Shown here: one piece after another, positions 6,315 to 38,593 of the stretch | How the letters are laid out: each line of letters starts with the position of its first letter | How positions within the stretch are numbered: position 1 is the first letter of the stretch | Origin: Desulfurispirillum indicum S5 | GTDB taxonomy: Bacteria; Chrysiogenota; Chrysiogenetes; Chrysiogenales; Chrysiogenaceae | Assembly (NCBI RefSeq): GCF_000177635.2 | Contig: NC_014836.1 | Location: 2,182,001 to 2,246,000 of the forward strand | DNA: 64,000 nucleotides | Direction of reading: 5' to 3' | Notes under the pieces: generated by a model | Seen by the model: the letters and a program-made list of their open reading frames with translations, nothing else | Databases searched by the model: none | What the model was told of the DNA's origin: nothing | Position numbers and translations under genes: made by a program

Positions 6315-6340
6315 TAACGAACGGCGAATGCGCTTCCACA

Positions 6341-6400: not shown

Positions 6401-6455
6401 GGCTGTTACCCTTCCATGCCAACAGCGGACCCACTTTGGACTTCTGACTGTAAGT

Positions 6456-6749: not shown

Positions 6750-6933
6750 CAGTGGTAATCCTCATAGTTTACAATTTCTGCATTGTTTCCGGTGAAGCGA
6801 AAGGTGACTCTCCAGTTCCCACTCACCTTGACAGACCAGGCACCTTTGCGACTGCCTTTCAGCTCGTGAAGAGCAAGTCCCGGTAAATCCATATCATCTG
6901 GCGACTCTGCCAGATCAAGGTTTGACAGAATAA
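6749..6933 (-). pseudogene. higB: HigB toxin, C-terminal remnant truncated by an IS
   Basis: The last 61 codons of a RelE-like HigB are present, reading SPDDMDLPGLALHELKG, GAWSVKVSGNWRVTFRF and NYEDYH then TGA. Families are about 90 residues long, so roughly the first third is missing. The break coincides exactly with the left end of the IS5-family element (6934). The missing part is not found elsewhere in the window. Confidence 0.85.
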
Positions 6934-7712: not shown

Positions 7713-7773
7713 TGGTGTATGTTGAATAAATCGGACACGAAAGGTAGATAGAGTTATCAAACCGGAGGTGTCT

Positions 7774-8087
7774 ATGAAGCGTCGAGTGGTATCGCGTTAC
7801 TCCAAGGAATTTCGCGCAGAGGCCGTGAGTCTTGTGAGGGACAGTGGGAAGTCTTCCGTAGAAGTATCTAGAGATCTTTCCTTGCCCAAGTCAACGCTTG
7901 AAAGCTGGCTTCGTGCGGACAAGGCGGGCAAGCTTACAGAAATAGGGAGTGATCGCCGCTCCTGACAGAAGTAGAGCAGGAGCTTTCCCGACTCAAGCGC
8001 GAGCTTCACCGTGCGCGCCAGGAGTGTGAAATCCTAAAAAAGGCCGCCGCGTACTTTGCCAGGGAGTCGCAGCCCGGTACGCGATGA
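7774..8087 (+). pseudogene. IS3-family OrfA (frameshifted)
   Basis: From ATG 7774 (GGAGGT upstream) the frame reads MKRRVVSRYSKEFRAEAVSL and KSTLESWLRAD, a helix-turn-helix of IS3 OrfA, then stops at 7965 after SDRRS. Removing the frame error at about 7960 allows continuation as LTEVEQELSRLKREL and ECEILKKAAAYF, the normal leucine-zipper region, to TGA 8085-8087. So a one-base deletion (or two-base insertion) has split orfA. The element may therefore no longer transpose by itself. Confidence 0.75.
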
Positions 8088-8947: not shown

Positions 8948-8978
8948 AGTTTTCGTGTCCGTTATTGACAACACATAC

Positions 8979-9521
8979 CATATTCTCCGGAGCGCCTACA
9001 ACAGGAGCTGATGGCAAATGGAATACATGTCAGTCTCTACCGGATCAGGAAAGTACGCAAGATGCATGGAATAGTGTGCAAACAGAAGCAGAAGTTCAAG
9101 GCAACCACCAACTCGAACCACAAGCTGCCAGTGGCACCAAACATACTGAATCAGGAGTTTACCGCCAGTGCCCCTAACCAGGCGTGGCTTACCGACATCA
9201 CCTATGTTCCAACAGATGAAGGGTGGCTCTACCTTGCTGGTCACAAGGATCTCTACAGTAAAAAGCTGGTGGGGTATGCTATGTCTGAACGTATGACCAA
9301 GAACCTTGTCATGCAGTCACTGCAGCATGCGGTGGAGCTGGAGCGTCCCGGCAAGGGGCTCATTCACCACAGCGATCGTGGCAGCCAATATTGCTCAAAT
9401 GAGTTCAGGCAACAATTGGAGCGTTATGGCATGCAATCTTCCATGAGCCGTCGGGGAAATTGCTATGACAATGCACCAATTGAGAGTTTCTGGGGAATAC
9501 TGAAGACAGAGTTGATCTATC
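8979..9521 (+). pseudogene. Partial second copy of IS3-family orfB
   Basis: 543 bp that repeat 8253-8795 of the complete element; the encoded residues are identical throughout. Both ends are cut: the left joins the right end of the complete IS3 copy, the right joins the second RAYT unit. It keeps the DDE residues but lacks the N-terminal and C-terminal parts and any start signal. The high identity means a recent event. Confidence 0.85.
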
Positions 9522-9610
9522 GACAAGCAAAAGGACACCCACTTTGCACTTGATGATTCCGCCATATATTCGATACACTCAAACACCAAACTCCCAGCAG
9601 GAGGTGCCAC

Positions 9611-10612
9611 ATGACCATTGCCAGAAGTCAGATTATTGCCCTGGATTCCACGCCCTACTATCACTGCGTCAGTCGTTGTGTGCGGCGGGCCTTTCTGTGT
9701 GGTGTTGACTCGGTAACGGGGCAGAGTTTCGACCACCGCAAGCAGTGGATTCTGGATCGGCTAGGGGTGCTGACTGAGGTCTTTGCTATTGATATCTGCG
9801 CCTACGCTCTGATGAGCAACCACTATCATCTGGTGCTGCGGGTTGACCGGGAGCGGGTGGAGGCGATGTCTGATTATGAGGTGCTTGGGCGCTGGAATGT
9901 GCTCTTTTCCGGCAATCCGCTGATCAAGATGTTTCTGGCGGGGCAGAAGCTCAGTGCTGTGCAGGAGCAGATGCTGGCGGCTTTGATTCGGGATATTCGC
10001 CCGCGTCTGTATGATATTTCCTGGTTTATGCGCAGTCTCAATGAGTGGATTGCCCGGCAGGCCAACAAAGAGGATAATTGCAAGGGGCGTTTCTGGGAGG
10101 GGCGATTTCGCACCCAGGCGCTGCTGGATGAATACGGTCTGCTGACGTGCATGGCCTATGTGGATCTGAATGCCATTCGGGCGGGGATTGCGGATTCACC
10201 GGAGCATTCCGACTTCTCTTCCATCCAGGCGCGCATACGAGCCTGGGGAGAGGTTTTAGGGGAAGAGGCGGCGGCTCAGTGTCCGCCTTTACTGGGCTTT
10301 AACGACAGTGGGACTGATGACGCTCTGCTACCCTTTACCACTGTGGATTATATGGAGCTGGTGGATTGGACGGCGCGCAATGTGCGGGCTGACAAGGCCT
10401 GCGCCATGGATGAGGACGCGCCGCCGATTCTGGTGCGCATGGGCATAGACAGTGAGCGCTTTGCCAAGCAGATGCGGGGTGAAGGCGGCAGTTTCCCCAC
10501 CTTCATGGGAGCCTACCACTGTCTGCGCGATGCGGCCAGGGAGCGGGGGCTGCACTATGTGCGGGGCAGTGGCACAGCCAAACGGTTGTTCTGCGCCGAC
10601 AGGGCGTCGTAG
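9611..10612 (+). CDS. REP-associated tyrosine transposase-like protein, copy B
   Basis: 333 residues, differing from copy A at only about ten positions (for example DNCKGRF instead of DGCKGRF, IRAWGEVLG instead of IEAWGKTLG). The HUH motif NHYHLV and the YVDLNAIRAG region are kept, as is the GGAGG ribosome site. Both copies look intact, which suggests the family is still under selection or was duplicated recently. Confidence 0.82.
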   Translation: MTIARSQIIALDSTPYYHCVSRCVRRAFLCGVDSVTGQSFDHRKQWILDRLGVLTEVFAIDICAYALMSNHYHLVLRVDRERVEAMSDYEVLGRWNVLFSGNPLIKMFLAGQKLSAVQEQMLAALIRDIRPRLYDISWFMRSLNEWIARQANKEDNCKGRFWEGRFRTQALLDEYGLLTCMAYVDLNAIRAGIADSPEHSDFSSIQARIRAWGEVLGEEAAAQCPPLLGFNDSGTDDALLPFTTVDYMELVDWTARNVRADKACAMDEDAPPILVRMGIDSERFAKQMRGEGGSFPTFMGAYHCLRDAARERGLHYVRGSGTAKRLFCADRAS

Positions 10613-10959
10613 AAGAATTCTACCCAATTGGATTTAAGGCCACCTTCCAATTCACCAGTCCAATCCCTCGCTGCACTCTTCCACCGGGGTCTGCATGTCT
10701 TCGCGGATGGATTCCGCATACCGGGAATGGAGAGCAGGTACAGGCTTTCCTGAATGGAATTCCTGTTTTCTTCGGCAGTAAGAATTGCTTTAGTAACTAT
10801 TCACGGTGAACATAACAGAAAAAGAGGGTCTCACCCAAAGTCCACAAAGCCCTCCAAGAAAAGTAGTCAAGAGAAAACCATATCTCTCGCCCGTTCGCTG
10901 CGCTCACTCGAGGCGCAGAGGGCGCGGAGGGAAGAAGAAACAAATTTGTAGCTGCTTTA

Positions 10960-11884
10960 GAACTTATCCATAAATTACGCCGATTTTCCTGTATGTGATT
11001 ATGGCTGCCGCAAGACACGTCAACCCGTAGTGAGTGACCTCAAGCTTCTCAAAGCGCACATGAATCTTCCTGAAACGGTTGAACCAGGAAATAGATGCTT
11101 CCACTATCCAGCGCCTCGCCTTCTTTGATGGGTCACGCTTCTTGTCCTCGATCTCTTCTTTTCGCTGCTTTACATGGGGTATGTATCCGCGCTGAAGAAT
11201 GCTGCTGAGCGCCTGCTTTCCCTTGTAGCCACAATCTGCGCAAAGATGCTGCTCCTGCTCTGCAGGCTTCTCGAAGACTACGCCATCAAGAACAGCTTCA
11301 AGCTGGCTCACATCATGCCGGTTCGCTCCGGTTACGACGATGGACAACGGGACGCCACGACCGTCCACCAGGACATGACGCTTGCTCCCGTTTTTTTCCC
11401 CGATCCGTCGGGTTCTTCCCTACGGTTTCAAGAGCCATTGGTGCTTTGTACATTCCGCCATCTATGCTTTGCCACTCCCAGGCAATTCCCTCCATCTCGT
11501 CATACTCAGCCAGCCCTTGACGCCAAATAGCTTCGAATACACCGGCCTTACTCCACTCAATGAAGTACTTGTGCACGGCACTTGCGCAACCAAACTGCTC
11601 CTTGGGTATCGCTTTCCACTGACAACCGGTGCGCAGAACATAGACAATGCCGGAAAACGCCTTCCTGGGGTTAAGTCGCTTGCGCCCACCACCAGGCTTG
11701 CGCTTGTAGACCTTGTCAAGATCTCTTTGATGGATTGGCAGCAAAGGCTCAACTCTTTGCCAGAAAGCATCTGAGACTTCCCATGATTGCACTTTAGACA
11801 TAAATCACCGCCATGAATGATCTCTCACTGAATCATTCTATAGCAAACTATCATAATGGTCAATAATTATTTATGGACAAGCTC
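10960..11884 (-). mobile_element. IS5-family insertion sequence, complete copy
   Basis: 925 bp bounded by inverted repeats GAACTTATCCATAAAT and, on the other strand, GAGCTTGTCCATAAAT. It is flanked on both sides by TTA, a three-base target duplication. The transposase is read on the minus strand. It sits in the disrupted second antitoxin copy. Confidence 0.9.
10964..11801 (-). CDS. IS5-family transposase made by frameshifting
   Basis: Two frames: 11801-11313 (N-terminal domain and first Asp, SIDGG) and an overlapping frame ending at 10964 (VDGRGVPL, second Asp in CADCGYKG, Glu in WIVEAS). They are joined at a run of seven A within GACCGGGG-like sequence, which is exactly conserved in the truncated copy at 7421-7427. 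Loss of one A by slippage, or +1 frameshifting, gives the continuous family motif DRGKNGSKRHVLVDGRG. Because both copies keep it, I read this as programmed and not as decay. Confidence 0.82.
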
Positions 11885-12442
11885 TTACTCTGCGTTCTCC
11901 GCGTGCTCTGCGAGAGAAATTGCCTTTCTCCCATTCGAAACCCTGAATAATTACCTGCATTATTCCTTTTCCCGGTGATGGTTATAGGCCGGTGGGAGTG
12001 TGTGGCCTCATCAATAAGTCGATACAGATTGGCACGGGCTTCACTGGCAGTCACTACGGCATGGCATGCTCTCCTGTCGATGTGCGGATTTATTGCTCGG
12101 AAATATTCAGCGATTGGCAGCGCCTTTCATGAAAGTACGCTTTTTCGTCGCAATTCAATTAAAATGTGGCTTGCCGTTTCGCTACGCGTTTTCCCATAGA
12201 AATTTCCCCTGAACAGGCAATCTCCCTTTGCCCCCTTGCGGCTTTGCGCCTTGAGTGAACACTGCGAACGGGCGTGAGACTCTGTCTTTCCATTCGCGTT
12301 CATTCGCGGTCAACATCCCTGGTTTTCACCTCGACCTCCTGCTTGGGTACGGGCCACAGAAAACGGAACTGGTCATTTGTCGCCAGATACCTTACCCTGC
12401 TTCATCATCACAATGCGCCAGTGGCGCTGCAGGGAGGGCATT
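11885..12442. other. Intergenic stretch, right edge of the accessory island
   Basis: 11962-12310 is the conserved end of the duplicated unit. 11885-11915 contains CTCTGCGTTCTCCGCG, an imperfect purine/pyrimidine repeat; a related GCGCAGAGGGCGCGGA occurs at 10913-10930 on the other side of the IS. 12310-12442 carries no gene I can support. Confidence 0.45.
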
Positions 12443-13069
12443 ATGAGCAGTCACTTTGACGCTGCCGCCAGCAAATGGGATCATGACCCCGCAAAAGTTG
12501 AGCGGGCAAGGGTAACAGCGGAAAGAATCCGGGAACTCCCCTTCGTCAATCGCAACAGCCTGGTGGATTTTGGCAGTGGCACCGGCCTGCTCGGCCTGCA
12601 GCTGAAGGATTCCTTCGCCAGCGTTCTCCTGGTCGATTCCTCGCCGGAAATGCTGCGGGTGGCCCGCGAGAAGATCACCGAACAGGGTATAACCAATGTC
12701 GAAACCTGCCACGGGGACAGCCTGACCGATGTGGTTTCGCGCCATTCAGCGATCACCACGCTGATGGTTCTGCATCACATGGCCGATGTGAAAGCATTTT
12801 TTACTGAGGCCTACCAGGCCCTCGAGCCGGAAGGCTTCCTGATTATTGCCGATCTGGCCAAGGAAGACGGTTCATTCCACAAGCACATGTCATCATTCAG
12901 TGGTCACAATGGATTTGATACTGAGGAGCTGTCCGAAATCGCAGCTGAAAGCGGCTTTCGCGTTCACAGCGCTGAGCGCTATCACGAAATAGTCAAAAAG
13001 GGTGCGAACGGAGAAAAGCGTGCCTATCCACTCTTCCTGTTTGCCGCCATAAAGCAGGTCCTCCCGTAA
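12443..13069 (+). CDS. Class I SAM-dependent methyltransferase
   Basis: A 208-residue methyltransferase. Motif I is VDFGSGTGLLGL, the acidic residue binding the SAM ribose is in VLLVDSSPEML, and TLMVLHHMADV is the post-motif region of UbiE/MenG-like enzymes. The start chosen is ATG 12443 with AGGGAGGG upstream; the frame is open further left. Substrate unknown. A hairpin terminator follows. Not part of an obvious operon. Confidence 0.8.
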   Translation: MSSHFDAAASKWDHDPAKVERARVTAERIRELPFVNRNSLVDFGSGTGLLGLQLKDSFASVLLVDSSPEMLRVAREKITEQGITNVETCHGDSLTDVVSRHSAITTLMVLHHMADVKAFFTEAYQALEPEGFLIIADLAKEDGSFHKHMSSFSGHNGFDTEELSEIAAESGFRVHSAERYHEIVKKGANGEKRAYPLFLFAAIKQVLP

Positions 13070-13078
13070 AAGAGTCAC

Positions 13079-13107
13079 CCGGCAGCTTATTCACCCTGCC
13101 GGTTATT
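13079..13107 (+). terminator. Probable intrinsic terminator of the methyltransferase gene
   Basis: CCGGCAG and CTGCCGG pair around a ten-base loop and are followed by TTATTCT. It lies ten bases after the stop codon. The T tract is weak. Confidence 0.5.
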
Positions 13108-13171
13108 CTGCAGAACTTCACTGAATGCGGCAGCGAGAATACCTGTAGGCATCGCGAATGGAGAATCTCAT

Positions 13172-13696
13172 ATGAAAAAACTGTTACTGCTTTTCAGTGC
13201 TCTTCTGCTCAAAGGGTGTCTGGGGATGCCGAAAGCTGTCCAGCCTGTTACGGATTTTGAGCTGGAGCGCTATCTGGGAACCTGGTACGAGATCGCGCGT
13301 CTGGATCATTCGTTCGAACGGGGCTTAAGCGGGGTTACGGCTGAGTACCGTCTGCGGGACGATGGAGGTATACAGGTGCTCAATCGCGGGTTCTCGGAGT
13401 CGAAAAACCAGTGGAAAGAAGCTGTGGGCAAAGCCTATTTTGTGAACAGTGATTCGGAGGGTTTCCTGAAGGTTTCCTTCTTTGGCCCCTTTTACGGTTC
13501 CTATGTGATTTTCGAGCTGGATCACGAGAACTACCAGTACGCCTTTATCTCTGGTCCCAACACCGGGTATCTCTGGTTCCTGTCGCGCACGCCAACCGTG
13601 GAACAGGAAATGATGGAGAAGTTCCTGTCGGCGGCAAGGGCTCGCGGGTTTGATACGGACAACCTTATTTTTGTAGGGCACGGGCGGCAAGAGTAG
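13172..13696 (+). CDS. blc: Outer-membrane lipoprotein Blc (bacterial lipocalin)
   Basis: A 174-residue lipocalin. A signal peptide with lipobox LLLKGC (Cys16 as lipidated residue) is followed by YLGTWYEIARLDHSFERG, the GXW motif region of Blc proteins, and by GPFYGSYVIFELD and GYLWFLSRTP. Blc sits in the outer membrane facing the periplasm and binds lipids, possibly lysophospholipids. No operon partner is visible; the next gene converges on it. Confidence 0.9.
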   Translation: MKKLLLLFSALLLKGCLGMPKAVQPVTDFELERYLGTWYEIARLDHSFERGLSGVTAEYRLRDDGGIQVLNRGFSESKNQWKEAVGKAYFVNSDSEGFLKVSFFGPFYGSYVIFELDHENYQYAFISGPNTGYLWFLSRTPTVEQEMMEKFLSAARARGFDTDNLIFVGHGRQE

Positions 13697-13699
13697 CCT

Positions 13700-15301
13700 T
13701 CAGCAAAGCCCGTCGCTGCTGCAATCCAGGCGTCCATGTTTTTCACAGGAGACCTGGTTGCGCCCGGCGGCTTTCGAGGCGTACAGGGCCTTGTCGGCAC
13801 GGGCCAGAAACCCGGCTTCATCGTCATCGGGCTGCCACGCGGTCACGCCGAAGCTGCAGGTCAGATTCCCTATGATGGGAAACGGATGCCATTCTATCTG
13901 CTGCCGCAGTTTTTCCGCAACGATCCTGGCAGCTTTGCAGTCATTATCCCTGAGCAGCAATACGAATTCTTCGCCACCCCAGCGGGCAAAGACGTCACTT
14001 GCGCGAATCCCCGCGCTGACAATCCTGGCAATTTCCTTCAGTACGGCATCCCCGGTGTTGTGACCCCAGGTGTCATTGACTCGCTTAAAGTGGTCTATGT
14101 CGAACATGATCAGCGCCATGGGGGTGGAGTTGCGTCGCTTTCTGGCGGCTTCGTCATCCAGCACCCGAGTGAACTGCAACCGGTTGGAGATGCCCGTAAG
14201 GGGATCGGTAATCGCCAGGGTTTCTTTCTCCTGTATCAGGGCCTCCGCCAGGGAAAGCAGGGTGTTGAAGGTGGTGGCAATATGGGTAATTTCATTCGGC
14301 CCACGGGTGGGTATGCGGCTGCTGAAGTCCTGGTTACGCACAATGCGGTCAATACTGGACAAGACGGCACTCAGTGCCCGTAAAAGACTGGTGGTGGCGG
14401 ATATCGTCAGAAACAGCACCGCGAGGGCGGCAACAGACACAACTGCCATTCCCACATGCATTGACGACTGCAGCTGACTGAGTTCTTCATGGGTGTGCTG
14501 TCTGATGATTTCCAGGGAGAGCTCTTCCAGGGACTTCATGTTATTGATAACCATTGACGAAGTGGTCCACCAGCCCATGGTGGTCAGGGATGTGGGGACA
14601 ACTCCATGGGCCATGATATGCTCCAGAGCCTGAAACATGCGCTCATTGGCCTGGTCACGGCACTTGTCCTCAAAGGCATGGGAGAGCTCGGCAGACGCTT
14701 TGCCTCTCAGCCGTCGCACCTGCTCATCATAGAGCCCCTTCAGGCTGAACAGCGTGCGCAACGCAACGGGTTCCGGCTGTTCGCTTTCCAGAATCTGTCC
14801 CAGGGTGGCGCGGATCTGACCAAGATACTCCTTGGCTTCAATCAGATGACGATGGGCATCGATGTCACTGGCGGCAATGGTCAGGCGTGGTTCATGGGTG
14901 AGGGTATCCATGGCGTCCAGCAGCTGGCGCAGAAGCTGTGTGTACTCCAGCCGTATGTCAGCGAAGCCCGCTGACTGCTGCAGCGTGCTGTGCCGAACCG
15001 CGTCAAGTCGTTCACGAAAACCGGGCAGCGGCACTGGTGTCTTCTCCAGGGTGTCGAGGGCGGCATCTGTGTGGCGAAATTGGCGATCCAGATTCTGGTA
15101 TTGCCCTGTGACAGCCTGCCCTCGCTCTTTTTGCAGTTCGTGCACGGCTCCTGAAAGAGCGCTGACAGTCTGGACGTTCGCGCTGACCCGCTCCACAGCG
15201 CGGGTCTGAATGATAAAGTTACCGTATTGCAGCCAAATGGTAAGAAACATGCCGGTTATCGCCATGAAGCTCAAGAGCAGAATTTTCTGTCGCAGGCTCA
15301 C
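13700..15301 (-). CDS. Membrane diguanylate cyclase with NIT-like sensor domain
   Basis: An N-terminal membrane segment (KILLLSFMAITGMFLTIWL) is followed by a periplasmic helical domain of about 260 residues with SALSGAVHELQKERGQAVT, which resembles the NIT nitrate/nitrite-sensing domain. A second membrane segment (VGMAVVSVAALAVLFLTISA), a HAMP-like linker and a GGDEF domain follow. The active site is RWGGEEFVLLL; FDIDHFKRVNDTWGH is typical. The preferred start is GTG 15301, with AGGAGG four bases upstream; another GTG lies at 15328. The enzyme should make cyclic di-GMP. No EAL domain and no RxxD inhibitory site was seen before GGEEF. Confidence 0.85.
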   Translation of the reverse strand: MSLRQKILLLSFMAITGMFLTIWLQYGNFIIQTRAVERVSANVQTVSALSGAVHELQKERGQAVTGQYQNLDRQFRHTDAALDTLEKTPVPLPGFRERLDAVRHSTLQQSAGFADIRLEYTQLLRQLLDAMDTLTHEPRLTIAASDIDAHRHLIEAKEYLGQIRATLGQILESEQPEPVALRTLFSLKGLYDEQVRRLRGKASAELSHAFEDKCRDQANERMFQALEHIMAHGVVPTSLTTMGWWTTSSMVINNMKSLEELSLEIIRQHTHEELSQLQSSMHVGMAVVSVAALAVLFLTISATTSLLRALSAVLSSIDRIVRNQDFSSRIPTRGPNEITHIATTFNTLLSLAEALIQEKETLAITDPLTGISNRLQFTRVLDDEAARKRRNSTPMALIMFDIDHFKRVNDTWGHNTGDAVLKEIARIVSAGIRASDVFARWGGEEFVLLLRDNDCKAARIVAEKLRQQIEWHPFPIIGNLTCSFGVTAWQPDDDEAGFLARADKALYASKAAGRNQVSCEKHGRLDCSSDGLC

Positions 15302-29096: not shown

Positions 29097-29825
29097 TCAC
29101 TCAAGCACATAGCGCAGGGGGAAGCGCAGGGACTCCGGTGATGACCCGGAAAGGTCGGCCACAAAGGAGCGGGCGACCCGCTCCAGGGTTTGTTCGGCGG
29201 CACGTCTGAGCAGGCGGTGGCTGCCCTGCTCTTCGATGAGAAACTCCACCAGGCGACCCTGTTCGTCGAGAGTGACCGTAATCATCAACTCCCCTTCCAG
29301 GCCCATGCGCCGCGCTGGCAGGGGGTAGAACTTCTCCGACTCCACGGCGCGCAGCAATTCATCCAGCAGGTCTGCCTGCCGGTGGGATTCATGCGCAGCC
29401 TGGCTGACGGGGGCATTCGCCTCAGCCACCGCTTCAAAATCCGCTGGTGGCACTTCGGCAGTTTCCGGAATCACTTCGTCCGGAACCTGCTCCTGTTCAG
29501 CTTCCTGAACGACGGTTTCGGGTTCAGGCGCAACTTCCGGTATCGGCTCTGCGGGAACCGGCACGGGGTTCACCGGAACTCTTTCTGCCGGTGGTTCGGG
29601 CAGGGTCACGGGCTTGACGACCGGTGGCGGTGGGGGACTGGGAATCTCCGGCAACGCAGGTGGTGACGCGAAGGCCATGGTGAGTGGCTGCGCCGGTGGG
29701 CGCAGCGGCTCACGCGCCGCAGGCTCAGGGGCAGCCATGGCTGCCAGCAGGCTGATGCCAAGCAGGACGGTCAGCAGCAGGGCCAGACGGGAGCTGAGGC
29801 GTTCATACGACTCAGCGTCGGTCAT
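29097..29825 (-). CDS. tonB: TonB energy-transducing protein
   Basis: A 242-residue protein with a single N-terminal membrane anchor (LALLLTVLLGISLLAAMAA), a long Pro/Glu/Val-rich periplasmic spacer and the C-terminal TonB fold (SEKFYPLPARRMGLEGELMI). The start ATG 29825 overlaps exbD by 14 bases. It is the last gene of the heme operon, and would energise the receptor encoded at 34657. The spacer is unusually rich in PEP and VPEP repeats. Confidence 0.9.
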   Translation of the reverse strand: MTDAESYERLSSRLALLLTVLLGISLLAAMAAPEPAAREPLRPPAQPLTMAFASPPALPEIPSPPPPPVVKPVTLPEPPAERVPVNPVPVPAEPIPEVAPEPETVVQEAEQEQVPDEVIPETAEVPPADFEAVAEANAPVSQAAHESHRQADLLDELLRAVESEKFYPLPARRMGLEGELMITVTLDEQGRLVEFLIEEQGSHRLLRRAAEQTLERVARSFVADLSGSSPESLRFPLRYVLE

Positions 29826-30216
29826 GGGGAAGAGTCGTGACCACAAAGTCCACTCTTCCCTGGGCCTGAGCCTGATCCACCACATGGGCGAAAGATTCAA
29901 AAGGCGCATGTTTATCCACATAAAAGTTCAGAGGTTTGTCGGGGTGATGCTGAAGCAGTGCCGCCACTTCCGAGCGCGATATCACGTCATCGCCATGGTA
30001 GATGTTCCCATCCCTGGCAATGGTGATTACCAGCCAATCGCGCTGCTCCAGGGTTGCCGCGCTCTCGCTGTCGGGCAGGCTGACTTCCAGGGCCGGGCGC
30101 AGAAAAGTGGTGGCCATGATAAAGAAGATAAGCAGCAGGAAAACCGCATCGATCAGCGGGGTCAGGTCGATGCGCTCATCCATGAGATCGTCGTCATGAT
30201 CAAAGGGACAGTGCAT
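29812..30216 (-). CDS. exbD: ExbD proton-channel subunit
   Basis: A 134-residue protein: cytoplasmic N-terminus, one membrane helix containing the essential Asp (LTPLIDAVFLLLIFFIMATTF) and a periplasmic domain ending LPHDRR. Its start overlaps the stop of exbB by one base. It forms the proton-driven motor with ExbB to power TonB. Confidence 0.93.
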   Translation of the reverse strand: MHCPFDHDDDLMDERIDLTPLIDAVFLLLIFFIMATTFLRPALEVSLPDSESAATLEQRDWLVITIARDGNIYHGDDVISRSEVAALLQHHPDKPLNFYVDKHAPFESFAHVVDQAQAQGRVDFVVTTLPHDRR

Positions 30217-30839
30217 CAGGATGCCTCCCGCTCCACCGGGCAGCGCACGTCCAGCAGCTCCACTGCCCGGTAGCTGTGCTCAATGGCTTCAATGCGAAAG
30301 CCTTTAAGTTTCAGGCTCAGCACATAGTAGAACACCAGGGTGGGCACAGCGATGCCCAGCCCCAGGATAGTGGTCAGAATGGCCTCCCAGATACCGGCGG
30401 CCAGCATATCCTGCTGGGGAACGGCACTGGCGGCAATCTCCTGAAACACCCGCACCATGCCCACCATGGTGCCCATGAGCCCCAGCAGCGGTGATATCAC
30501 CGCAATCAACCGCAGGTAGGTCACGTGCTTGTTCACCCGCTCAAAGTTGCGGTGGAAGAGGTAAGCCACTTCCGCCCGCAGATCCTGGGAGTGCTCAGCG
30601 TGGGTTTTCACCACACTGGCCACAATCTGGGTCAGGGGATTCGTGGTGGTGCCGCACAGCTCGTCAATGTAGCCCTGCTGGCGATTGCCCAGATTGTCAA
30701 AGCGGCGGCAGAAATCCCGGCCCACCAGGTGCAGGTAGATGCCGTTGCGCAGGCACAGGTAGGTGGCGATGCCGCCCAGTACCACCAGGATAACGCCAAT
30801 GGGGCCAATGAAGCCCGCCAGGGTCAGCAGAAATTCCAT
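30216..30839 (-). CDS. exbB: ExbB proton-channel subunit (MotA/TolQ/ExbB family)
   Basis: A 207-residue protein with three membrane segments: FLLTLAGFIGPIGVILVVLGG at the N-terminus and two C-terminal ones, LRLIAVISPLLGLMGTMVGMV and GIWEAILTTILGLGIAVPTLVF, where the conserved Gly/Thr pattern of TolQ/ExbB is seen. It overlaps the flavodoxin gene by one base, so it is in the heme operon. Confidence 0.92.
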   Translation of the reverse strand: MEFLLTLAGFIGPIGVILVVLGGIATYLCLRNGIYLHLVGRDFCRRFDNLGNRQQGYIDELCGTTTNPLTQIVASVVKTHAEHSQDLRAEVAYLFHRNFERVNKHVTYLRLIAVISPLLGLMGTMVGMVRVFQEIAASAVPQQDMLAAGIWEAILTTILGLGIAVPTLVFYYVLSLKLKGFRIEAIEHSYRAVELLDVRCPVEREAS

Positions 30840-31366
30840 CAGGGGCGTCCCGCCAGCGCAAAGTGCTCTTTCACGGCCGCAGAAAAGACCTTGGCGGCAT
30901 TCATGGTATCGGTTTCATCGGGGTGTTTGGCAGCTTCCTCCAGACGCGCCTTGCGCTCCGGAGTCATGGGGTGGCGCTCCGGCGCGTAGCGGGCCATGGC
31001 CTCCACCACCTTGGGATCCACCTTGCCCTGGCACATGAAGCGGCAGATGACGCGATTATCATTCTCCTCCATCATGCGCACGGCACTCTCCATGCACTCA
31101 CGGGCATGATCGGAGTCGGGCCAGGCCCCCAGGGTGCCGAACAGGCCAACCACCGTTCCCCGGAGACGCTTCATGAATTCCTGAGCCTGTTCATCGGGCA
31201 CCCCTTTATCCACCCAGAAGCCGATGGCGACAAAATCATGGTCAAGGGTCTGAGGGGCGCACTCCACGGAGACGGTTTCCACGTCACCGGGCAAAACCGG
31301 AGCAATGGCGTCGGCAATCATGCGGGTATTGCCAGTGCGGCTGGAATAGGCAACCAGAGCTTTCAT
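30839..31366 (-). CDS. Flavodoxin, probable electron donor for heme breakdown
   Basis: A 175-residue flavodoxin. The FMN phosphate loop is YSSRTGNTRM, and VGLFGTLGAWPDS is the second flavin-binding loop. It overlaps hutX (ATGA). Flavodoxins are known to reduce ChuW/HutW-type radical SAM enzymes; the operon context suggests this role here. The C-terminal 60 residues (HPMTPERKARLEEAAKHP) resemble the extended flavodoxins of heme loci. Confidence 0.8.
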   Translation of the reverse strand: MKALVAYSSRTGNTRMIADAIAPVLPGDVETVSVECAPQTLDHDFVAIGFWVDKGVPDEQAQEFMKRLRGTVVGLFGTLGAWPDSDHARECMESAVRMMEENDNRVICRFMCQGKVDPKVVEAMARYAPERHPMTPERKARLEEAAKHPDETDTMNAAKVFSAAVKEHFALAGRP

Positions 31367-31887
31367 GAATGGTCTCCATATTTGGCTTTCAGCGTGAGGA
31401 AGTGGTTTTTTACCTCTTCGAGCAGTTGACGGGTTTCGGGATCACGCCCCACATAGACGGCAAACATGGGCTTGTTCTCACGGGTGAAGAAGTGCACGCT
31501 GTGACTTTCCACCCCGAAGTGGGGCTTGGACAGCAGCCAGATGGAGCCCAGCTTGCCGATAAAGATATGTCCGCCCAGGGGATTGTCGGCCTCGTGCAGA
31601 TTAAACATGCCATGCCCGCTGCTGCCCTGGGGCAGGGTGCCCTTCACCTCCACCACCATGCCTTCATTGACGACGATAAAGGTAATGCGTTTCCATTGCG
31701 ATATTTCCTTCCACAGATCCATAAAATGGTCTGCGGGTACGGCAACTGCCATGTCCGGGGACAGCAGGGGCATGATCTGGCCTTCTTCCAGGCCATGCTC
31801 GCGGGCCAGCTGGGAAAGCATGATGCTGGGGTTCTTTTCAACGATGGCTCGTATTTCGTCTTGTAAGGTTTCTGGCACTGATGTCAT
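31363..31887 (-). CDS. hutX: HutX/ChuX family cytoplasmic heme carrier
   Basis: About 174 residues. Family features are PSIMLSQLAREHGL near the start, VPADHFMDLWKEISQW, and FNLHEADNPLGGHIFIGKLGSIWLLSK in the middle, with SHSVHFFTRENKPMFAVYVG near the end. HutX/ChuX binds heme and hands it to degrading enzymes. ATG 31887, with AAGGAG eight bases upstream, is preferred; ATG 31893 lies too close to that site. It is placed between the importer and the flavodoxin. Confidence 0.85.
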   Translation of the reverse strand: MTSVPETLQDEIRAIVEKNPSIMLSQLAREHGLEEGQIMPLLSPDMAVAVPADHFMDLWKEISQWKRITFIVVNEGMVVEVKGTLPQGSSGHGMFNLHEADNPLGGHIFIGKLGSIWLLSKPHFGVESHSVHFFTRENKPMFAVYVGRDPETRQLLEEVKNHFLTLKAKYGDHS

Positions 31888-31911
31888 TGACATGGCTCCT
31901 TATGGGATTTT

Positions 31912-33336
31912 TCAGGATACGTTCACGAGGTCTTTTTCTGCTGGTGCGCCCAGCTCCAGCTTGCAGGTGCAGGACCGCTGCAGCAGCTCCAGGTCGTGGC
32001 TGATGAGCAGGACACACCCCCCCAGCCCGGCAAAACGGGCCAGGTTGTCGGCGATAATGGCCATATTTTCCCCGTCGAGCCCGCTGGTGGGCTCGTCCAG
32101 GATAAAGATATAGGGTTGGCGGATCTGTCCGCAGGCGATGACCAGGCGCTGGCGCTCTCCGCCGGAGAGAGACTGGGGGTGGCGCTCGGCCAGGTGCTCC
32201 AGCCGATACTCCCGCAGCAGCTTTTCCACCTCTGCGGGACGGACACCGGCGTGGGAGCTGGCAGCGGCCGAGTGCAGTTCCGAACGCACGGTCTTCATAT
32301 GCAGCTGGTGGTCGGTGTTCTGCAGCACAATGCTGGTGCGGCGCAGCAGCTCGCGGGCGCTGACCTTTTCCCCGCCAAGGGCAATACTGCCCCGATCCAT
32401 CTTCTGCAGGCCAGTAAGCAGGCGGGCGAAAGTGGTTTTCCCCACGCCATTGGGACCGAGCAGGCCGATGATTTCGCCACGGGGCAGGCGGAAGGACTCG
32501 CCGTGAAACAGGGGCGGGTTACGGCGATAGGCAAAGTGAAGCTCCTGCACGTCTATAAACGGGTCGGTATCGGCCACACTGCCCAGGGAAGCGCGAACAT
32601 CATCAACCCGGGTGCTGCGCAGCCCGTAGCGGGACTGCAGCGCGCGCTCGTCCAGGCGGCAGTAGTCGGTCACTTCGGCGATACTCCCGCCTTCCATGAC
32701 AATCACCCGGTCCACCACTTCGCGCAGCCAGTACAGGCGATGATCAACGATCAGGAGGGTCATTCCCGCCTGTTTCAGTTCCAGCAGGGTCTTGGCCAGT
32801 TCTGCTGTCGATTCAGGATCCAGGTTGGCACTGGGCTCATCCAGAATAAGAATCCGGGGAGCCAGGGACATGACCGAAGCCAGGGCCACTTTCTGCTTCT
32901 GTCCTTCCGAAAGGTGATGGACGCTGGCACCCGCCAGGCTCGTGATGCCAAACTGCTCCATGGCCACCTGTATATGGCGCTGCATCAGGCTGGGCTGGGT
33001 ATTGCGCCACTCGTGGGCGAAGGCCATTTCGTCTTCCACGTTGAGGGCGAAGAACTGCTGCTCGGGATCCTGGAACAGGGTGCCCACATCCCGACTGATC
33101 CCGTGAATGGAGCGCTGGCGATTGTCGTGACCATTGACACTCACTGTGCCCTGCAGATCGCCCTGGAAGTACCAGGGCGCCAGGCCATTGAGCAGACGGA
33201 TGATGGTGGACTTGCCCGAGCCCGAAGCTCCGGTGACCAGCACGGCTTCGCCGGGGGCCACGTGGAAGCTGAGGTCGCGCACAGCGGGGGTACTCTGAAA
33301 GGGATAGGTATAACTCACGGCGTCAAAGGTAATCAT
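31912..33336 (-). CDS. ECF transporter ATPase, two ABC domains fused (EcfA-EcfA')
   Basis: A 474-residue protein with two complete ABC modules. The first has Walker A GASGSGKST, signature LSEGQKQKV and Walker B ILILDEPSANLDPES. The second has GPNGVGKTT, LSGGERQRLVI and FILDEPTSGLDGEN. Fusion of both ATPases is common in group II or dedicated ECF transporters. It sits between the T protein and hutX. Confidence 0.88.
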   Translation of the reverse strand: MITFDAVSYTYPFQSTPAVRDLSFHVAPGEAVLVTGASGSGKSTIIRLLNGLAPWYFQGDLQGTVSVNGHDNRQRSIHGISRDVGTLFQDPEQQFFALNVEDEMAFAHEWRNTQPSLMQRHIQVAMEQFGITSLAGASVHHLSEGQKQKVALASVMSLAPRILILDEPSANLDPESTAELAKTLLELKQAGMTLLIVDHRLYWLREVVDRVIVMEGGSIAEVTDYCRLDERALQSRYGLRSTRVDDVRASLGSVADTDPFIDVQELHFAYRRNPPLFHGESFRLPRGEIIGLLGPNGVGKTTFARLLTGLQKMDRGSIALGGEKVSARELLRRTSIVLQNTDHQLHMKTVRSELHSAAASSHAGVRPAEVEKLLREYRLEHLAERHPQSLSGGERQRLVIACGQIRQPYIFILDEPTSGLDGENMAIIADNLARFAGLGGCVLLISHDLELLQRSCTCKLELGAPAEKDLVNVS

Positions 33337-33345
33337 ACATACTCC

Positions 33346-34122
33346 TTACATCCCCATGATGCTGCGGGAAGGCAGTTGTACATGGGCCACCAGGGAAGCA
33401 GTGATCATGGCAAAAAACAGCGCTCCGGCCACGGCGTCGCGCCAGGTGAGGGTGTTGGTGCGGTAACGACTCACGTCCCTGCTGTAGCCCACTCCTTTGA
33501 GTTCGGCCGCCATGCCCAGTTCATCGGACGTGCGCAGAGCCCGAAAGAGGATGGGAATAAAGAGCAGGCGCAGGCCCATCAGGGGATGGCGCAGCAGAAA
33601 GAGGGGGTTCAGACGGTATCCTTTGATTTTCAGGGATTCGGATATCTGTTTGATATCCTCGAGAAACGAAGGGATAAAGCGAATCATCACCGTGGCTGGG
33701 ATATAGAGCCAGTAGGGCAGACGCAGGGTCTTCAGCGCCGTCATGATGCCCTGCACCCGTGACGAAAGCGCCATGGCCAGCAAGGTGTTCATGAGCACTG
33801 CGGAGCGCAGGAAGGGCACCAGCAGGCTATCAAGCCCTGACGCACCAAAGCGCGGCAGGAACAGGCCCATCAGGTGGAGAAAGCCGATGGCCATCAGCCA
33901 CATGAGACCCAACACTCCGTAGGCAATGGCGATAACGCCAAAGCGCCGTGACAAAAAGGCGTAGATGGCACTGGCAATAGCCAGGGAAGCCAGAATCCAG
34001 GGGTTACTGAGAATGATGACCACAATGGCGGCCACCAGGCTGATCAGCATCTTGGTGCGCACATCCAGCTGGTGCAGCGGGGTTTCATCGCGGCGGATAT
34101 CAGTGGCGGATAATGCCGGCAT
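33346..34122 (-). CDS. ECF transporter T component
   Basis: About 258 residues with several membrane helices and the family motif region TLRLPYWLYIPATVMIRFIPSFL, then ISESLKIKGYRL and the ARS/ARG-like coupling segment RALRTSDELGMAAELKG. Preferred start ATG 34122 with AAGGAG; it overlaps the S component gene by 23 bp. The T protein couples the ATPases to the S component. Confidence 0.87.
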   Translation of the reverse strand: MPALSATDIRRDETPLHQLDVRTKMLISLVAAIVVIILSNPWILASLAIASAIYAFLSRRFGVIAIAYGVLGLMWLMAIGFLHLMGLFLPRFGASGLDSLLVPFLRSAVLMNTLLAMALSSRVQGIMTALKTLRLPYWLYIPATVMIRFIPSFLEDIKQISESLKIKGYRLNPLFLLRHPLMGLRLLFIPILFRALRTSDELGMAAELKGVGYSRDVSRYRTNTLTWRDAVAGALFFAMITASLVAHVQLPSRSIMGM

Positions 34123-34657
34123 GGCGCAACTCCTTGACAAAATAGCGGCCCACAAAGAGACCGATAATGGAGCCGATGTACCCGATGGCCACGATAACGG
34201 CGACCATGGCGATGATGCGGGGCTCCTCCCGCATCATCAGCCAGGAAAACCCAAGGCCAATGGTCTTGGAGAGAAGGTCATAGATAGCCACCCCCACCAT
34301 GATGCTCCAGGTGAAGCGATAGCCACCCAGCGCCATGATGACTCCCTCGGCAATCAGCCCCGCCAGAATGGAGGCGGGAATGAGCACCAGGCTGCCCCCC
34401 AGCATCAGGGCTGAGATAATGGCGCTGATGACGAGAAAGAGGGTCAGGGTACCGAACTTGCGCACCTTGTAGAGCATCACCACCAGCAAAGCCGTGAAGA
34501 TCACATTTTTGAGGATCAGGGTCAGGGGGTTCATGCCGCCGCCCATCAAGGCCACCAGAATACTGGATACCTTGACCACAGCGGCAAATATCCCCACCAC
34601 CACCAGATCCGGTACCTGCCAGTAGCGATTGAGGGTAAGAACCTGGGCATTGCTCAT
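34100..34657 (-). CDS. ECF transporter S component, MptD-like
   Basis: A 185-residue membrane protein with about five or six hydrophobic helices, for example VVGIFAAVVKVSSILVALMGGG and SALMLGGSLVLIPASILAGLI. It resembles the MptD-type ECF S components. S components bind the substrate; which one cannot be told from sequence. Its place directly after the TonB-dependent receptor and before hutX suggests heme or an open tetrapyrrole. The start overlaps the receptor stop (TGATG). Confidence 0.78.
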   Translation of the reverse strand: MSNAQVLTLNRYWQVPDLVVVGIFAAVVKVSSILVALMGGGMNPLTLILKNVIFTALLVVMLYKVRKFGTLTLFLVISAIISALMLGGSLVLIPASILAGLIAEGVIMALGGYRFTWSIMVGVAIYDLLSKTIGLGFSWLMMREEPRIIAMVAVIVAIGYIGSIIGLFVGRYFVKELRHAGIIRH

Positions 34658-36735
34658 CAGAAGGCCCCACTGATACCGACGACGAAGTGTCGGCCAGCCA
34701 TGGGAATGGACTCCTGGGAGACGGTATACTTCTCATCGGTGAGGTTGTTGAGGTTGAGATTCAGCTCATACTGCTGCCGACTGCCGAAGGTGAATCCCAT
34801 GGTCAGATTCAGGGTCTGCCAGGAATCATCAGTGTCGATGGTACCATCGGAGTTTTCCCGCTCCGCCTTGCCTGCTGCCCGCACATAGGCGTCCAGATTG
34901 GCGTCCACACCAGCAGCGATGGCGCGCTCATGGCGCAGGCCGATGCGGCCCTGCAGCTCGGGATTCCCGGTTTTCCAGGTGTTCAGGTCTTCCGACTCGA
35001 ACTTGCGCTTCAGCCAGGTGGCTGAGCCGTAGGGAGTCAGGTTCAAAGATTCCACCAGATAGGCTACCGCAACCTCCATACCGTGGGTGGAGGCCTTGTC
35101 CACATTGGCAAAGGTGTTGGCATTGTTTATGGTCGGGTGAGCCGCTGTGGTGATGTAGTCCTCGGTCTTGCTGGCAAAGAGGGCGGCGTCTACCAGCAGG
35201 TTCTGGCCAAAGTGGCGCAGGCCGATCTCAACGTTGTCGGAGGTCTCCGGCTCCAGATCCGGGTTGCTGTAGGTGGGATTCTGACTGCCGTGAACCGTGC
35301 CGATAAAGAGCTGCTGCAGGGTAGGCAGCCGGTAGCCCTGGGAATAGCTGGCCCGCAGAGCCGTGTCCTCCAGTCCCTGCCAGGTCAGGCCGATGGAATA
35401 CACCAGTTTGCTGTCGCGGCTGGAGTCCTCTTCCAGTCCCGGCTCCTCGGCGGAGGTCAACTCATTGCGAGCCCAGGTCTGACGAAGGCCCAGGGTCAGA
35501 ATGGTATCGGGATTGAGGCTCCACTCGTCCTGCACATACAGGGCGTAGAAGTCACTTTTGGCTTTATTGGTGTAGCTGGACTCCACAAATTCCTGCGGCT
35601 GCGCGTTGAACGGGGGCATAGGCGCCCATGGCCCCCGTTGGCGCCTGAACTCGTCTGCCTTCAGGCGATCCTGGATGAGCTCCACCCCGGCAACCACATA
35701 GTGATCATCGGCCACCAGCCAGTCGGTCTGTACCGCCAGGCCGTAGGTGTCCTGATCGTTTTCCGTGCGGTTACGCATCTGCAGGGGAATCTGTACCGCA
35801 GGCATGGGCCTGACATCCATATCCATGCGGAAATCCTTATAGGTGTTCTGGGCGTAGGCGTCGGCCCGCAGCTTCACCAGGGCGTCACTGAGATGCTCCG
35901 CTTCATAGAAGAACGACACTTTCTCCCGCGACCACTCGGGCAGATCCTGGGCAAAATGCTCCATGGTTCCGGAGATGGTGCCTTCCGGGACATAGGTGCG
36001 ATAATCGCCATTGTAGGTGTCATAGCGGCCACCGACGATGAAGTCGTCACCCTGGTAATCGATGTAGGCAAAGATGCTGGATTCTTTATAGGCGGTTCCA
36101 TCTGCTGTGCCACCGGGGGTGTCGCGGTCATCGTGGTCCGACCAGGCGCCTCCCACCCGGTACCCCATGCGGCCGCTCTTGCCATAGACCGAAAGGTGCT
36201 GGCGGGTTCCCTCGGTGGAGGAATCATAGGAGAGTCCCACATCAACCTGCACCGGGCGTTCACCGCCTTTTTTGGTGATAATATTCACCACGCCACCAAT
36301 GGCTTCAGATCCGTAGAGCACCGATGACGGGCCCTTGATGATCTCGATGCGCTCAATCAGGGCCGGGTCCATCAGAAACACCGCACCGGTCATGGCCTTC
36401 TGCTCTGAAGTTTTCTGGCCATCAATCAGGATCAGAACCCGCGCTCCCGACTCGCCGCGGATAAAGACGCGCTTGGCACCACTGACGGAACCATCGTGCA
36501 CCTCCACGCCGGGAATGTCCCGCAGGGCCTCAGCCACCACTGCGGCACCGCCGCGCCGGATCTCCTCGGAACTCACCGAGCTTACCGACGCGGGAACCTC
36601 CAGCAGCTCCCGTTCAGCGCGGGTAGCGGTCACCGTCACCCCACGCTGGCCTGTTTCCTCCTGTGCCTGAACCGGCAATGCTGCAGCGCTTATCAACCCC
36701 GCCATACACAGGGCACCGACTCGTTTGATACTCAT
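34657..36735 (-). CDS. TonB-dependent outer-membrane receptor, probably for heme
   Basis: About 692 residues. A signal peptide (ALCMAGLISAAALPVQA) is followed by a TonB box region (GVTVTATRAERELLEVP), the plug domain (GAAVVAEALRDIPGVEVHDG, FIRGESGARVLILIDGQ, SSVLYGSEAIGGVVNIIT) and a 22-strand barrel ending HFVVGISGAF. Ligand is inferred from neighbours; the FRAP/NPNL heme motif is not clearly seen. Start ATG 36735 fits the signal peptide. It is 50 bp after the radical SAM gene. Confidence 0.88.
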   Translation of the reverse strand: MSIKRVGALCMAGLISAAALPVQAQEETGQRGVTVTATRAERELLEVPASVSSVSSEEIRRGGAAVVAEALRDIPGVEVHDGSVSGAKRVFIRGESGARVLILIDGQKTSEQKAMTGAVFLMDPALIERIEIIKGPSSVLYGSEAIGGVVNIITKKGGERPVQVDVGLSYDSSTEGTRQHLSVYGKSGRMGYRVGGAWSDHDDRDTPGGTADGTAYKESSIFAYIDYQGDDFIVGGRYDTYNGDYRTYVPEGTISGTMEHFAQDLPEWSREKVSFFYEAEHLSDALVKLRADAYAQNTYKDFRMDMDVRPMPAVQIPLQMRNRTENDQDTYGLAVQTDWLVADDHYVVAGVELIQDRLKADEFRRQRGPWAPMPPFNAQPQEFVESSYTNKAKSDFYALYVQDEWSLNPDTILTLGLRQTWARNELTSAEEPGLEEDSSRDSKLVYSIGLTWQGLEDTALRASYSQGYRLPTLQQLFIGTVHGSQNPTYSNPDLEPETSDNVEIGLRHFGQNLLVDAALFASKTEDYITTAAHPTINNANTFANVDKASTHGMEVAVAYLVESLNLTPYGSATWLKRKFESEDLNTWKTGNPELQGRIGLRHERAIAAGVDANLDAYVRAAGKAERENSDGTIDTDDSWQTLNLTMGFTFGSRQQYELNLNLNNLTDEKYTVSQESIPMAGRHFVVGISGAF

Positions 36736-36784
36736 ATCCACACTCCACTCGTTTGAATTTCCATGCAACGGGCATGGCTCATGT

Positions 36785-38185
36785 TCACTGCCCCATTGCC
36801 GCTGGCATGGTCGGTTCTCGCAGACTGGCAAGGTATTCCAGCAGGTACTGGGCCATGGTCACATTCCAGAACTGCCCGGCCCGAGTCAGCACCACCCAGT
36901 GCCCACTTTGCTCAAGCAGGCCCGCCTTGCCCCACTGTTCAAACAGGGGCAGGCACCGCTCCAGAAGCTCCGTTCCCAGCAGGGCAGCCAGCTGCTGCAG
37001 ATTCAGGGCGGCCACATCGAAGCCACCGGTGATCGCTCCCGTCACCTCCCGATCCGTATCGGGACGGGCGGTAACCATGGCCAGCGGCTTGCGGCCCTCC
37101 CGGATACTGTCCAGATAGCGTTCCAGGTCGCGTTCGACAAAATAGCCGTGACCGTGCAGACTGCCGCCGGCGCCACAGCCGAAGGCCAGGATATGGGCTT
37201 TGTTTTTGACCAGTTGATTGTAGAGATTACGCTCGCGGGTGGTGCGACCCCAGTGGCTGACGGAAAGGCGTCTCCAGCGATTGGCTTCCATGACGTCCAG
37301 CCCCTGTGCAAACATGCGGGCCTGGCGGGTCATGTCGGCGGCAGGCTCAATGGCACCCTGAGCCATACGCTTGGCCAGCTCACTGTGGGGCAATACGTTC
37401 AGCTGGTACAGGTCGGCACCATCAAGAGCCAGAGAAGCGGCAGTGCGCACGTCCTCCTCCCATATTTCCATGGTCTGCCCCGGAAACCCGTATACCAGGT
37501 CGATCACCACTGCCGCCTGATCGGTGGCCATGAGGCGTTCCAGTGCCTGCAGAACGGATTCCCGATCATCAATGCGAGCCATGCTGCGCCGCACATTGGT
37601 GTCAAAGCTCTGCACTCCGATGGAGAAACGGTTGGCACCCCCCTCAAGGCAGGCGTCAATTTTGTCTTGACCGAAACCGTGTATTCTCCCCTCCACCGTG
37701 ATTTCACAGTCATTGGCCAGGGGCAGGTAACAGGTGGCCGCATCCAGCACCCGCCTGAGGTTCTCTGCACTCAGGGCGTTGGGCGTCCCTCCCCCCAGAT
37801 AGAGGGCATGGACAGGACCGGAGGTCACGGCCGGATCACTGGAGCTCTGCTTCAGTTCGCCAATAAGGGCATCCACATAGGCGGCTTCCAGGTCATCCCG
37901 GTGAAAGCGGTTGAAAAAACCGCAATAGAGGCAACGGGTCTTGCAGAAGGGAATACTGATGTACGCTGCACTTTTGCCGGAACGGGGTCGGGCCATGAGC
38001 GCGCGGAATACCTCCTGAAACTTTGTGACATCCAGGTTGGGCATCTGCATGCCGGCGTGCACGGCAGCCTTTTTCTGAAAAGCGCCAGCAAGGGGGTCGC
38101 CATCGGTGCGCGCATAAAAACGTTCAATAACAGCTGATACTGGTGATACACCCGACATGGGTGACGCGTGAGAAGGTGGTTGCAT
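36785..38185 (-). CDS. ChuW/HutW-type anaerobic heme-degrading radical SAM enzyme
   Basis: About 466 residues, related to HemW/HemN. The 4Fe-4S cluster motif is CKTRCLYCGFF, with YISIPF before it and the SAM motif LYLGGGTP after it. ITVEGRIHGF, GVQSFDTNVRR and DLVYGFPGQT follow. The family opens the heme ring without oxygen by SAM-dependent methylation, releasing iron. Context (HutX, flavodoxin, receptor) supports ChuW/HutW over coproporphyrinogen dehydrogenase. Start ATG 38185 is uncertain; ATG 38158 is possible. Confidence 0.85.
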   Translation of the reverse strand: MQPPSHASPMSGVSPVSAVIERFYARTDGDPLAGAFQKKAAVHAGMQMPNLDVTKFQEVFRALMARPRSGKSAAYISIPFCKTRCLYCGFFNRFHRDDLEAAYVDALIGELKQSSSDPAVTSGPVHALYLGGGTPNALSAENLRRVLDAATCYLPLANDCEITVEGRIHGFGQDKIDACLEGGANRFSIGVQSFDTNVRRSMARIDDRESVLQALERLMATDQAAVVIDLVYGFPGQTMEIWEEDVRTAASLALDGADLYQLNVLPHSELAKRMAQGAIEPAADMTRQARMFAQGLDVMEANRWRRLSVSHWGRTTRERNLYNQLVKNKAHILAFGCGAGGSLHGHGYFVERDLERYLDSIREGRKPLAMVTARPDTDREVTGAITGGFDVAALNLQQLAALLGTELLERCLPLFEQWGKAGLLEQSGHWVVLTRAGQFWNVTMAQYLLEYLASLREPTMPAAMGQ

Positions 38186-38302
38186 AATCCAGACCCTGAA
38201 GCACCGGCTCAGCACAGGCTGAACAGATGACGCGTGGTAGTGGTTCGGGATTTACAATCCTCGGGAAAGAGGTGCTTGCAGCACTCAGGTCAGCAACGAT
38301 AG

Positions 38303-38506
38303 TCAACTCGGATCCGGGTGACGCTCCCTGCACTGATAGGCGTAGTCAAAACGCTGTATGGCCCCGCACTTGGGGCACTTCATTTCAACTTCCACGACAT
38401 ACCCCTTAAAGAGCAGTCGTTTGCAGCGTTTACAGCGAACCTCAGGGAGCGCTGCGTCTGCTGCGCGGCCACACCGGCAGGGGGAAGTTTCCTGATGAGG
38501 GAACAT
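38303..38506 (-). CDS. Com-like small zinc-finger protein
   Basis: About 67 residues with two Cys pairs: CRCGR near the start, then VRCKRCKRLLFKGYVVEVEMKCPKCGAIQRF, the four-Cys finger of the phage Mu Com family. Com of Mu binds mom mRNA and activates translation. ATG 38506 has GTGGAG six bases upstream. No phage genes are nearby. It precedes the heme operon by 117 bp on the same strand and has its own promoter-like site, so it may lead the transcript and regulate it. Confidence 0.72.
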   Translation of the reverse strand: MFPHQETSPCRCGRAADAALPEVRCKRCKRLLFKGYVVEVEMKCPKCGAIQRFDYAYQCRERHPDPS

Positions 38507-38565
38507 ACGCTTCTCCACAAGGAATTTCGGTGCATCTGGTGCCGCATGTCCAGAAATGAACATTC

Positions 38566-38593
38566 AACATACCATAACGTCGATTGACGTCAA
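38566..38593 (-). promoter_or_regulatory. Sigma70-like promoter for the Com-like gene and possibly the heme operon
   Basis: On the minus strand TTGACG, 16 bases, TATGTT. Start of transcription would be near 38560, about 55 bp before the ATG. No clear Fur box overlaps it. Confidence 0.5.

Follow-up and report, generated by a model that had tools for sequence, protein, structure and literature searches.

A heme-iron operon of the anaerobe Desulfurispirillum indicum S5 with a proposed energy-coupling factor transporter of heme in the place of a HutBCD-type importer

The genome of the strict anaerobe Desulfurispirillum indicum S5 (PMC3368425) consists of one contig of 2,928,377 bases, and the present analysis concerns a putative heme-iron operon in a stretch of 64,000 nucleotides (bases 2182001-2246000), referred to here as the window. 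Ten consecutive open reading frames (ORFs) in the ORF list of the window occupy 38215 to 29097 of the minus strand, overlapping or lying a short distance apart; the original prediction for this DNA had described this run of ten genes, from 38185 to 29097. Each of the gene families named by that prediction was recovered in Pfam and NCBIfam searches, in the order HutW, TonB-dependent receptor, the S, T and fused A-A' components of an energy-coupling factor (ECF) transporter, HutX, flavodoxin, ExbB, ExbD and TonB. The sister genome G002 and many distantly related genomes show this order too. The ORFs of HutW, the receptor, T and TonB extend upstream, with likely starts at 38185, 36735, 34122 and 29825, respectively. 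The ten genes, in window positions, are the following:

36785..38185 (ORF reaches 38215), minus strand: HutW/ChuW radical S-adenosylmethionine (SAM) heme-opening enzyme (TIGR04107; CKTRCLYC cluster motif)
34657..36735 (ORF reaches 36831), minus strand: TonB-dependent receptor, heme type (PF00593, PF07715; signal peptide; YRLP...VHG...NPDL box)
34100..34657, minus strand: ECF S component, proposed heme binder (PF09605; predicted fold; invariant GGGMNP and RE.P)
33346..34122 (ORF reaches 34155), minus strand: ECF T component (PF02361)
31912..33336, minus strand: fused ECF ATPase A-A' (two ABC_tran stretches; best NCBIfam match ECF_ATPase_1)
31363..31893, minus strand: HutX cytosolic heme carrier (TIGR04108)
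30839..31366, minus strand: HmuF/FldH-type heme-binding flavodoxin, with His132 as proposed heme ligand (PF12641; PDB 8g64 match)
30216..30839, minus strand: ExbB (PF01618, 78.6 bits, above the Pfam cut-off)
29812..30216, minus strand: ExbD (PF02472, 80 bits, above the Pfam cut-off)
29097..29825 (ORF reaches 29921), minus strand: TonB (PF03544, 34.7 bits, cut-off 24.6)

The S component scored 44.6 bits against the Pfam family Trep_Strep/MptD (PF09605), exceeding the gathering score of 28.7, as did its homologues in the loci L009 and L042, and reached 32.2 bits against the NCBIfam model TIGR02185. Since the cut-off of the latter (76.45) is missed, S is judged from its sequence to be a divergent branch of the Trep_Strep/MptD family (PF09605, TIGR02185). 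Clustering with a vitamin or queuosine-precursor clade, which would speak against a heme substrate, was not observed: at E<0.01 in Pfam and NCBIfam, S matched Trep_Strep/MptD only and no vitamin or queuosine-precursor family. The AlphaFold model of S, built from seven homologues, displays six long helices (mean predicted local distance difference test score 84.7), and the best solved folds in Foldseek were ECF S components, with 5edl at the top (probability 1.00, template modelling score 0.61, E 0.006) followed by TmRibU; a profile of S compared with PDB sequences gave no match. Invariant in 23 S sequences are, among others, GGGMNP (39-44 without gaps), R143, E144 and P146. The positive-inside rule (Lys/Arg in the loop between transmembrane helices 2 and 3 and at the C-terminus) would place the GGGMNP and RE.P segments on the periplasmic side, and on account of this predicted placement Met42 may be regarded as a candidate iron ligand and Arg143 as a candidate propionate contact. 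The T component scored 56 bits against PF02361 (cut-off 25), and its coupling sites were recognized by eye as SLKIKG and AAELKG. Adjacent genes thus encode S, T and two ATPase units (PF09605, PF02361, two ABC_tran), which is the arrangement of group I (dedicated) ECF transporters, and the six-helix fold predicted by the model of S agrees with this class.

HutW scored 566 bits against TIGR04107 (cut-off 400), which places it among HutW/ChuW anaerobilin synthases, and HutX scored 186 bits against TIGR04108 (cut-off 110). Receptors of the window's kind carry the heme box YR.P..QQ.Y.G..HG....NPDL.PE. Its His, which serves as a heme ligand in heme receptors elsewhere, is present in window-type and HutBCD-type receptors alike. 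In the ECF-type receptors of L042-L052 and L094-L096, which comprise the group of f7 (a family of the same phylum) and three Desulfo-phylum loci, this His (VHGS) is replaced by Met (SSMGGG). The flavodoxin scored 172 bits against PF12641 and 104 bits against the BilS model NF045594 (cut-off 155); its only PDB match was 8g64, the heme-bound FldH of Fusobacterium nucleatum (E 9.6e-18). The helical-cap heme ligand of FldH, His134, aligns with His132 of the flavodoxin, which is invariant in the 19 copies compared. As to its family the flavodoxin stands as first named, and its type is specified here as the heme-binding HmuF/FldH kind rather than a plain electron carrier. HmuF and FldH supply HmuW with heme and also reduce anaerobilin (PMC10404700). 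By analogy with homologues, for which the chemistry of HutW/HmuW and the heme binding of HutX and HmuF have been established elsewhere, the D. indicum proteins may be expected to act alike.

Two variants were observed among related cassettes. HutX and the HmuF-type flavodoxin form one fused protein in f7, according to the two proteins tested (L051 8877-10004 and L052 15247-16311) and probably also in L042-L045; this fusion links both heme-handling proteins functionally. In some cassettes lacking HutX, the flavodoxin gene is followed by one for a protein of about 150 amino acids (L009 6768-7232, L092 12561-13016, L093 13067-13525) with the motif WATxITVRxDGVPYAIEAT, which looks like PNPOx/HutZ; the L009 copy had no Pfam or NCBIfam match at the thresholds used.

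The S subfamily was detected in 23 genomes, which belong to at least two phyla. T and A-A' adjoin S in every one of them, and HutW lies in the S locus in all 18 genomes where this could be checked, the contig ending first in the other five. Sister genome G002 holds the same cassette with 78-99% identity; its receptor gene (L040 8015-10134) is split into two overlapping frames, owing either to an assembly error or to a frameshift. The third family member, G001, has neither S nor HutW above cut-off. Within the same phylum, six loci and two contig fragments of f7 contain the cassette. When named genome contigs were scanned, receptor-S-T-A was furthermore found in metagenome-assembled genomes (MAGs) of Geobacter, Desulfobacterales, Desulfovibrio and Adiutrix, in Smac51 and in another deltaproteobacterial MAG, and HutW was above cut-off in six of these six genomes. 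Among 395 genomes surveyed in the phylum of the Desulfovibrio MAG, S occurred in nine, all of them belonging to the 19 with a strong HutW match (naive probability 1.6e-13, which exaggerates the association since the genomes are related), and a second phylum survey, built around the Geobacter MAG, gave the same set of genomes. A search for the S component on plasmids found none. In genomes of at least two phyla S-T-AA' sits between the receptor and HutX/flavodoxin, and the ECF is constantly accompanied by HutW, HutX and an HmuF-type flavodoxin.

In the textbook route of Gram-negative heme uptake, a TonB receptor passes heme to a periplasmic binding protein and a FecCD-type ATP-binding cassette (ABC) importer. 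The claim that the ECF transporter occupies the usual slot of HutBCD was borne out by another family of the same phylum, f2, in which nine cassettes (L041, L046-L050, L053-L055) contain receptor, HutW and HutX without S-T-AA', and eight of the nine also contain ExbB-ExbD-TonB within the stretch read. Pfam searches of one of them identified Peripla_BP_2, FecCD and ABC_tran in the slot of S-T-AA', and behind these another ATPase together with an ABC-2 membrane protein; judged by gene size, order and ATPase similarity, the remaining eight are laid out alike. The one f2 binding protein tested had heme IsdE as its best NCBIfam match (103 bits, below cut-off).

In the HutW tree, 20 of 21 enzymes from ECF-type cassettes fell into one group (support 95/97) and the nine from HutBCD-type cassettes into another (100/100). 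In the exception, G142, the S-T-AA' resembles that of the window but is accompanied by a HutW that branches with the HutBCD-type enzymes (99/98; the row is long-branched), and because of this combination with a HutW of the other branch the pairing of S-T-AA' with HutW probably arose more than once. Furthermore, the tree groups the window's HutW with that of the Geobacter MAG, and f7 with three Desulfo-phylum genomes. As these groupings contradict species relations, the tree suggests that the cassette moved horizontally.

An ABC-2 exporter (ATPase plus ABC2_membrane), which might export anaerobilin or excess heme, ends several cassettes of either importer type (L041 4696-6278, L004 6106-7676, L040 1541-2329, L104 16808-17500) and is absent from the operon of the window. 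A different HutW cassette, L132 of genome G221 (4963-14505), contains a receptor, a PNPOx-like protein, ExbB-ExbD-TonB, HutW and a flavodoxin together with a second ECF transporter (CbiQ-type T, fused ATPase). Its S-like membrane protein matched no Pfam or NCBIfam family, and a profile comparison with S gave a probability of 17%, i.e. no clear homology; the ECF of L132 is possibly an independent recruitment for heme.

Other importers of the D. indicum genome were surveyed as well. Only two FecCD permeases score above cut-off. One belongs to a BtuBFCD locus with a B12-type receptor, a BtuF-like protein, an ATPase and TonB. The other lies in a FecBCD-FmdE locus (L057) that lacks a receptor and combines an unrelated binding protein, an ATPase and an FmdE-like gene, the latter named by eye as it had no family match; the only strong NCBIfam match of the binding protein was a weak ferrichrome-type one (49 bits). 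The only other CbiQ of the genome adjoins CbiM (CbiM-CbiQ ECF). Since the other FecCD loci are BtuBFCD and FecBCD-FmdE and the other CbiQ stands with CbiM, the ECF of the heme operon appears to be dedicated. Family searches of the genome, on which the absence of other heme importers rests, found no heme importer of HutBCD type elsewhere. A gene order unique to this genome with a separate HutBCD, which would have counted against the prediction, was thus not encountered, as at least two phyla share the order and no heme-type HutBCD was found.

Upstream of hutW, three further features were noted:

38303..38563, minus strand: Com-like four-Cys zinc-ribbon gene, likely ATG at 38506 (PF10122, 33.3 bits, cut-off 22.9)
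38593-38566, minus strand: promoter-like site ahead of the Com-like gene, aligning with a similar site in G002
38248..38284, minus strand: leader in the interval from the Com-like gene to hutW, with two hairpins (GTGCTGCAAGCAC, 38284-38272, and GGATTGTAAATCC, 38260-38248)

The transcript of the heme operon probably starts with the Com-like gene (38303-38563). The ten genes first listed stand, and HutW, at their head, is probably not the first gene of the transcript. Both hairpins are kept in two G002 copies, hairpin 1 showing a T-A to C-G change, and an Rfam search of the leader (38248..38284) gave no match. The Com-like gene accompanies heme cassettes of both importer types (window, L040, L041, L046-L050, L053-L055, L104), standing ahead of hutW in the window and G002, whereas in f2 loci it either precedes the receptor or closes the cassette at its far end. 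G002 has a second copy of Com plus leader at the other end of the cassette, behind the ABC-2 exporter gene. Com of phage Mu is a translational regulator that binds mRNA; therefore, control of the heme operon at the RNA level, with the Com-like protein as a translational regulator of heme genes, is conceivable by analogy.

The following pathway is proposed. The receptor, powered by the operon's own ExbB-ExbD-TonB, would bring heme into the periplasm. The group I ECF transporter S-T-AA' would then import it through the inner membrane, S being the heme binder and no periplasmic protein of HutB type taking part. Cytosolic HutX and HmuF-type flavodoxin would bind heme and hand it to HutW, which would open the ring by radical SAM chemistry and free Fe2+, and the flavodoxin would then reduce the anaerobilin product. 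From the position and conservation of the transporter and the importer exchange we conclude with considerable confidence that the operon is a complete, self-powered anaerobic heme-iron pathway with heme import by ECF; what we infer within it is that S binds heme, that transport runs inwards and that no periplasmic carrier is involved.

Several observations weigh against this conclusion. The best NCBIfam match of the receptor, TonB-hemin (TIGR01785), amounts to 241.5 bits and does not reach the curated cut-off of 316.85. On its predicted periplasmic side S lacks an invariant His, the candidate ligand there being Met42, and its heme binding is deduced indirectly. As read by eye, the coupling motifs of T are IKG and LKG instead of the usual Ala-Arg-Gly form. 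A Fur box sought upstream of the operon had a best match of only 12/19, with none in G002, and was dropped.

It is unlikely, in our estimate, that the ECF imports another compound (another tetrapyrrole, a corrinoid, a metal chelate or a flavin precursor) while heme crosses the inner membrane by another permease. Such a role would be compatible with PF09605 having no assigned substrate and with ligand switching being possible among S components, heme binding by S being a proposal. However, the ECF takes the place of a heme-type ABC importer in sister cassettes, its constant partners are HutW, HutX and the HmuF-type flavodoxin, and BtuBFCD and CbiM-CbiQ already serve corrinoid and cobalt/nickel in this genome. 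Still less probable is a subsidiary role, in which the ECF would import heme alongside a conventional main system, namely the FecBCD-FmdE locus L057, in the way that LhaSTA accompanies IsdEFL. That locus has the full set of binding protein, FecCD permease and ATPase, and both importer types exist in Staphylococcus lugdunensis (PMC7299338); but L057 is devoid of a receptor and heme genes, its binding protein shows only a weak match of ferrichrome type, and no S-bearing cassette that was read contains HutBCD-like genes. A chance neighbourhood, i.e. insertion of an unrelated ECF into a heme operon of one lineage, found no support, is scarcely credible and was rejected on account of the place that S-T-AA' keeps in at least two phyla.

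Beyond heme import by ECF in D. indicum itself, we lean slightly towards a general view, according to which horizontally mobile heme-iron cassettes of diderms use ECF transporters in place of HutBCD and need no periplasmic heme-binding protein, S components having been recruited for heme at least twice (the PF09605 branch and the S-like protein of L132). Should heme be the substrate, a branch of Trep_Strep/MptD (PF09605) would have its first one, and heme transport by ECF, reported so far in Gram-positives only, would extend to double-membraned bacteria. Searches of the literature for heme ECF transporters in Gram-negatives or in TonB cassettes returned papers on Gram-positives only, the subscription literature being thinly covered, so that an earlier report is possible.

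Known heme ECF transporters are LhaSTA of S. lugdunensis, streptococcal SiaFGH and the system of L. sakei, the S components of which are reported to share little mutual similarity (PMC7299338). Like these, the D. indicum operon combines S, T and A in a heme-acquisition operon, with heme as substrate (in D. indicum only proposed); in contrast to these Gram-positive systems without outer membrane or TonB, it has a fused A-A' and genes for anaerobic degradation, as well as a TonB receptor together with the motor that serves it. With the hmu operon of F. nucleatum (PMC10404700) it shares an anaerobilin synthase beside a heme-binding flavodoxin and a TonB receptor, whereas that operon (HmuW, HmuF) employs HmuT, HmuU and HmuV for transport across the inner membrane, with no ECF reported. 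A further likeness is to Gram-negative HutBCD/HmuTUV-HutW cassettes, including the nine of f2, with which D. indicum has in common the receptor, HutW, HutX and the Com-like gene, and, in eight of the nine, ExbB-ExbD-TonB. Where D. indicum has S-T-AA', these have a binding protein, FecCD and an ATPase plus the ABC-2 exporter, and the flavodoxin of the f2 locus tested belongs to another Pfam family (PF12724) than that of D. indicum (PF12641). Within one and the same cassette an ECF transporter cleanly replaces this importer, a pattern that recurs in anaerobes of at least two phyla. If heme is what the ECF carries, this raises the question of how heme passes the periplasm without HutB, a question made testable by natural pairs of cassettes with either importer.

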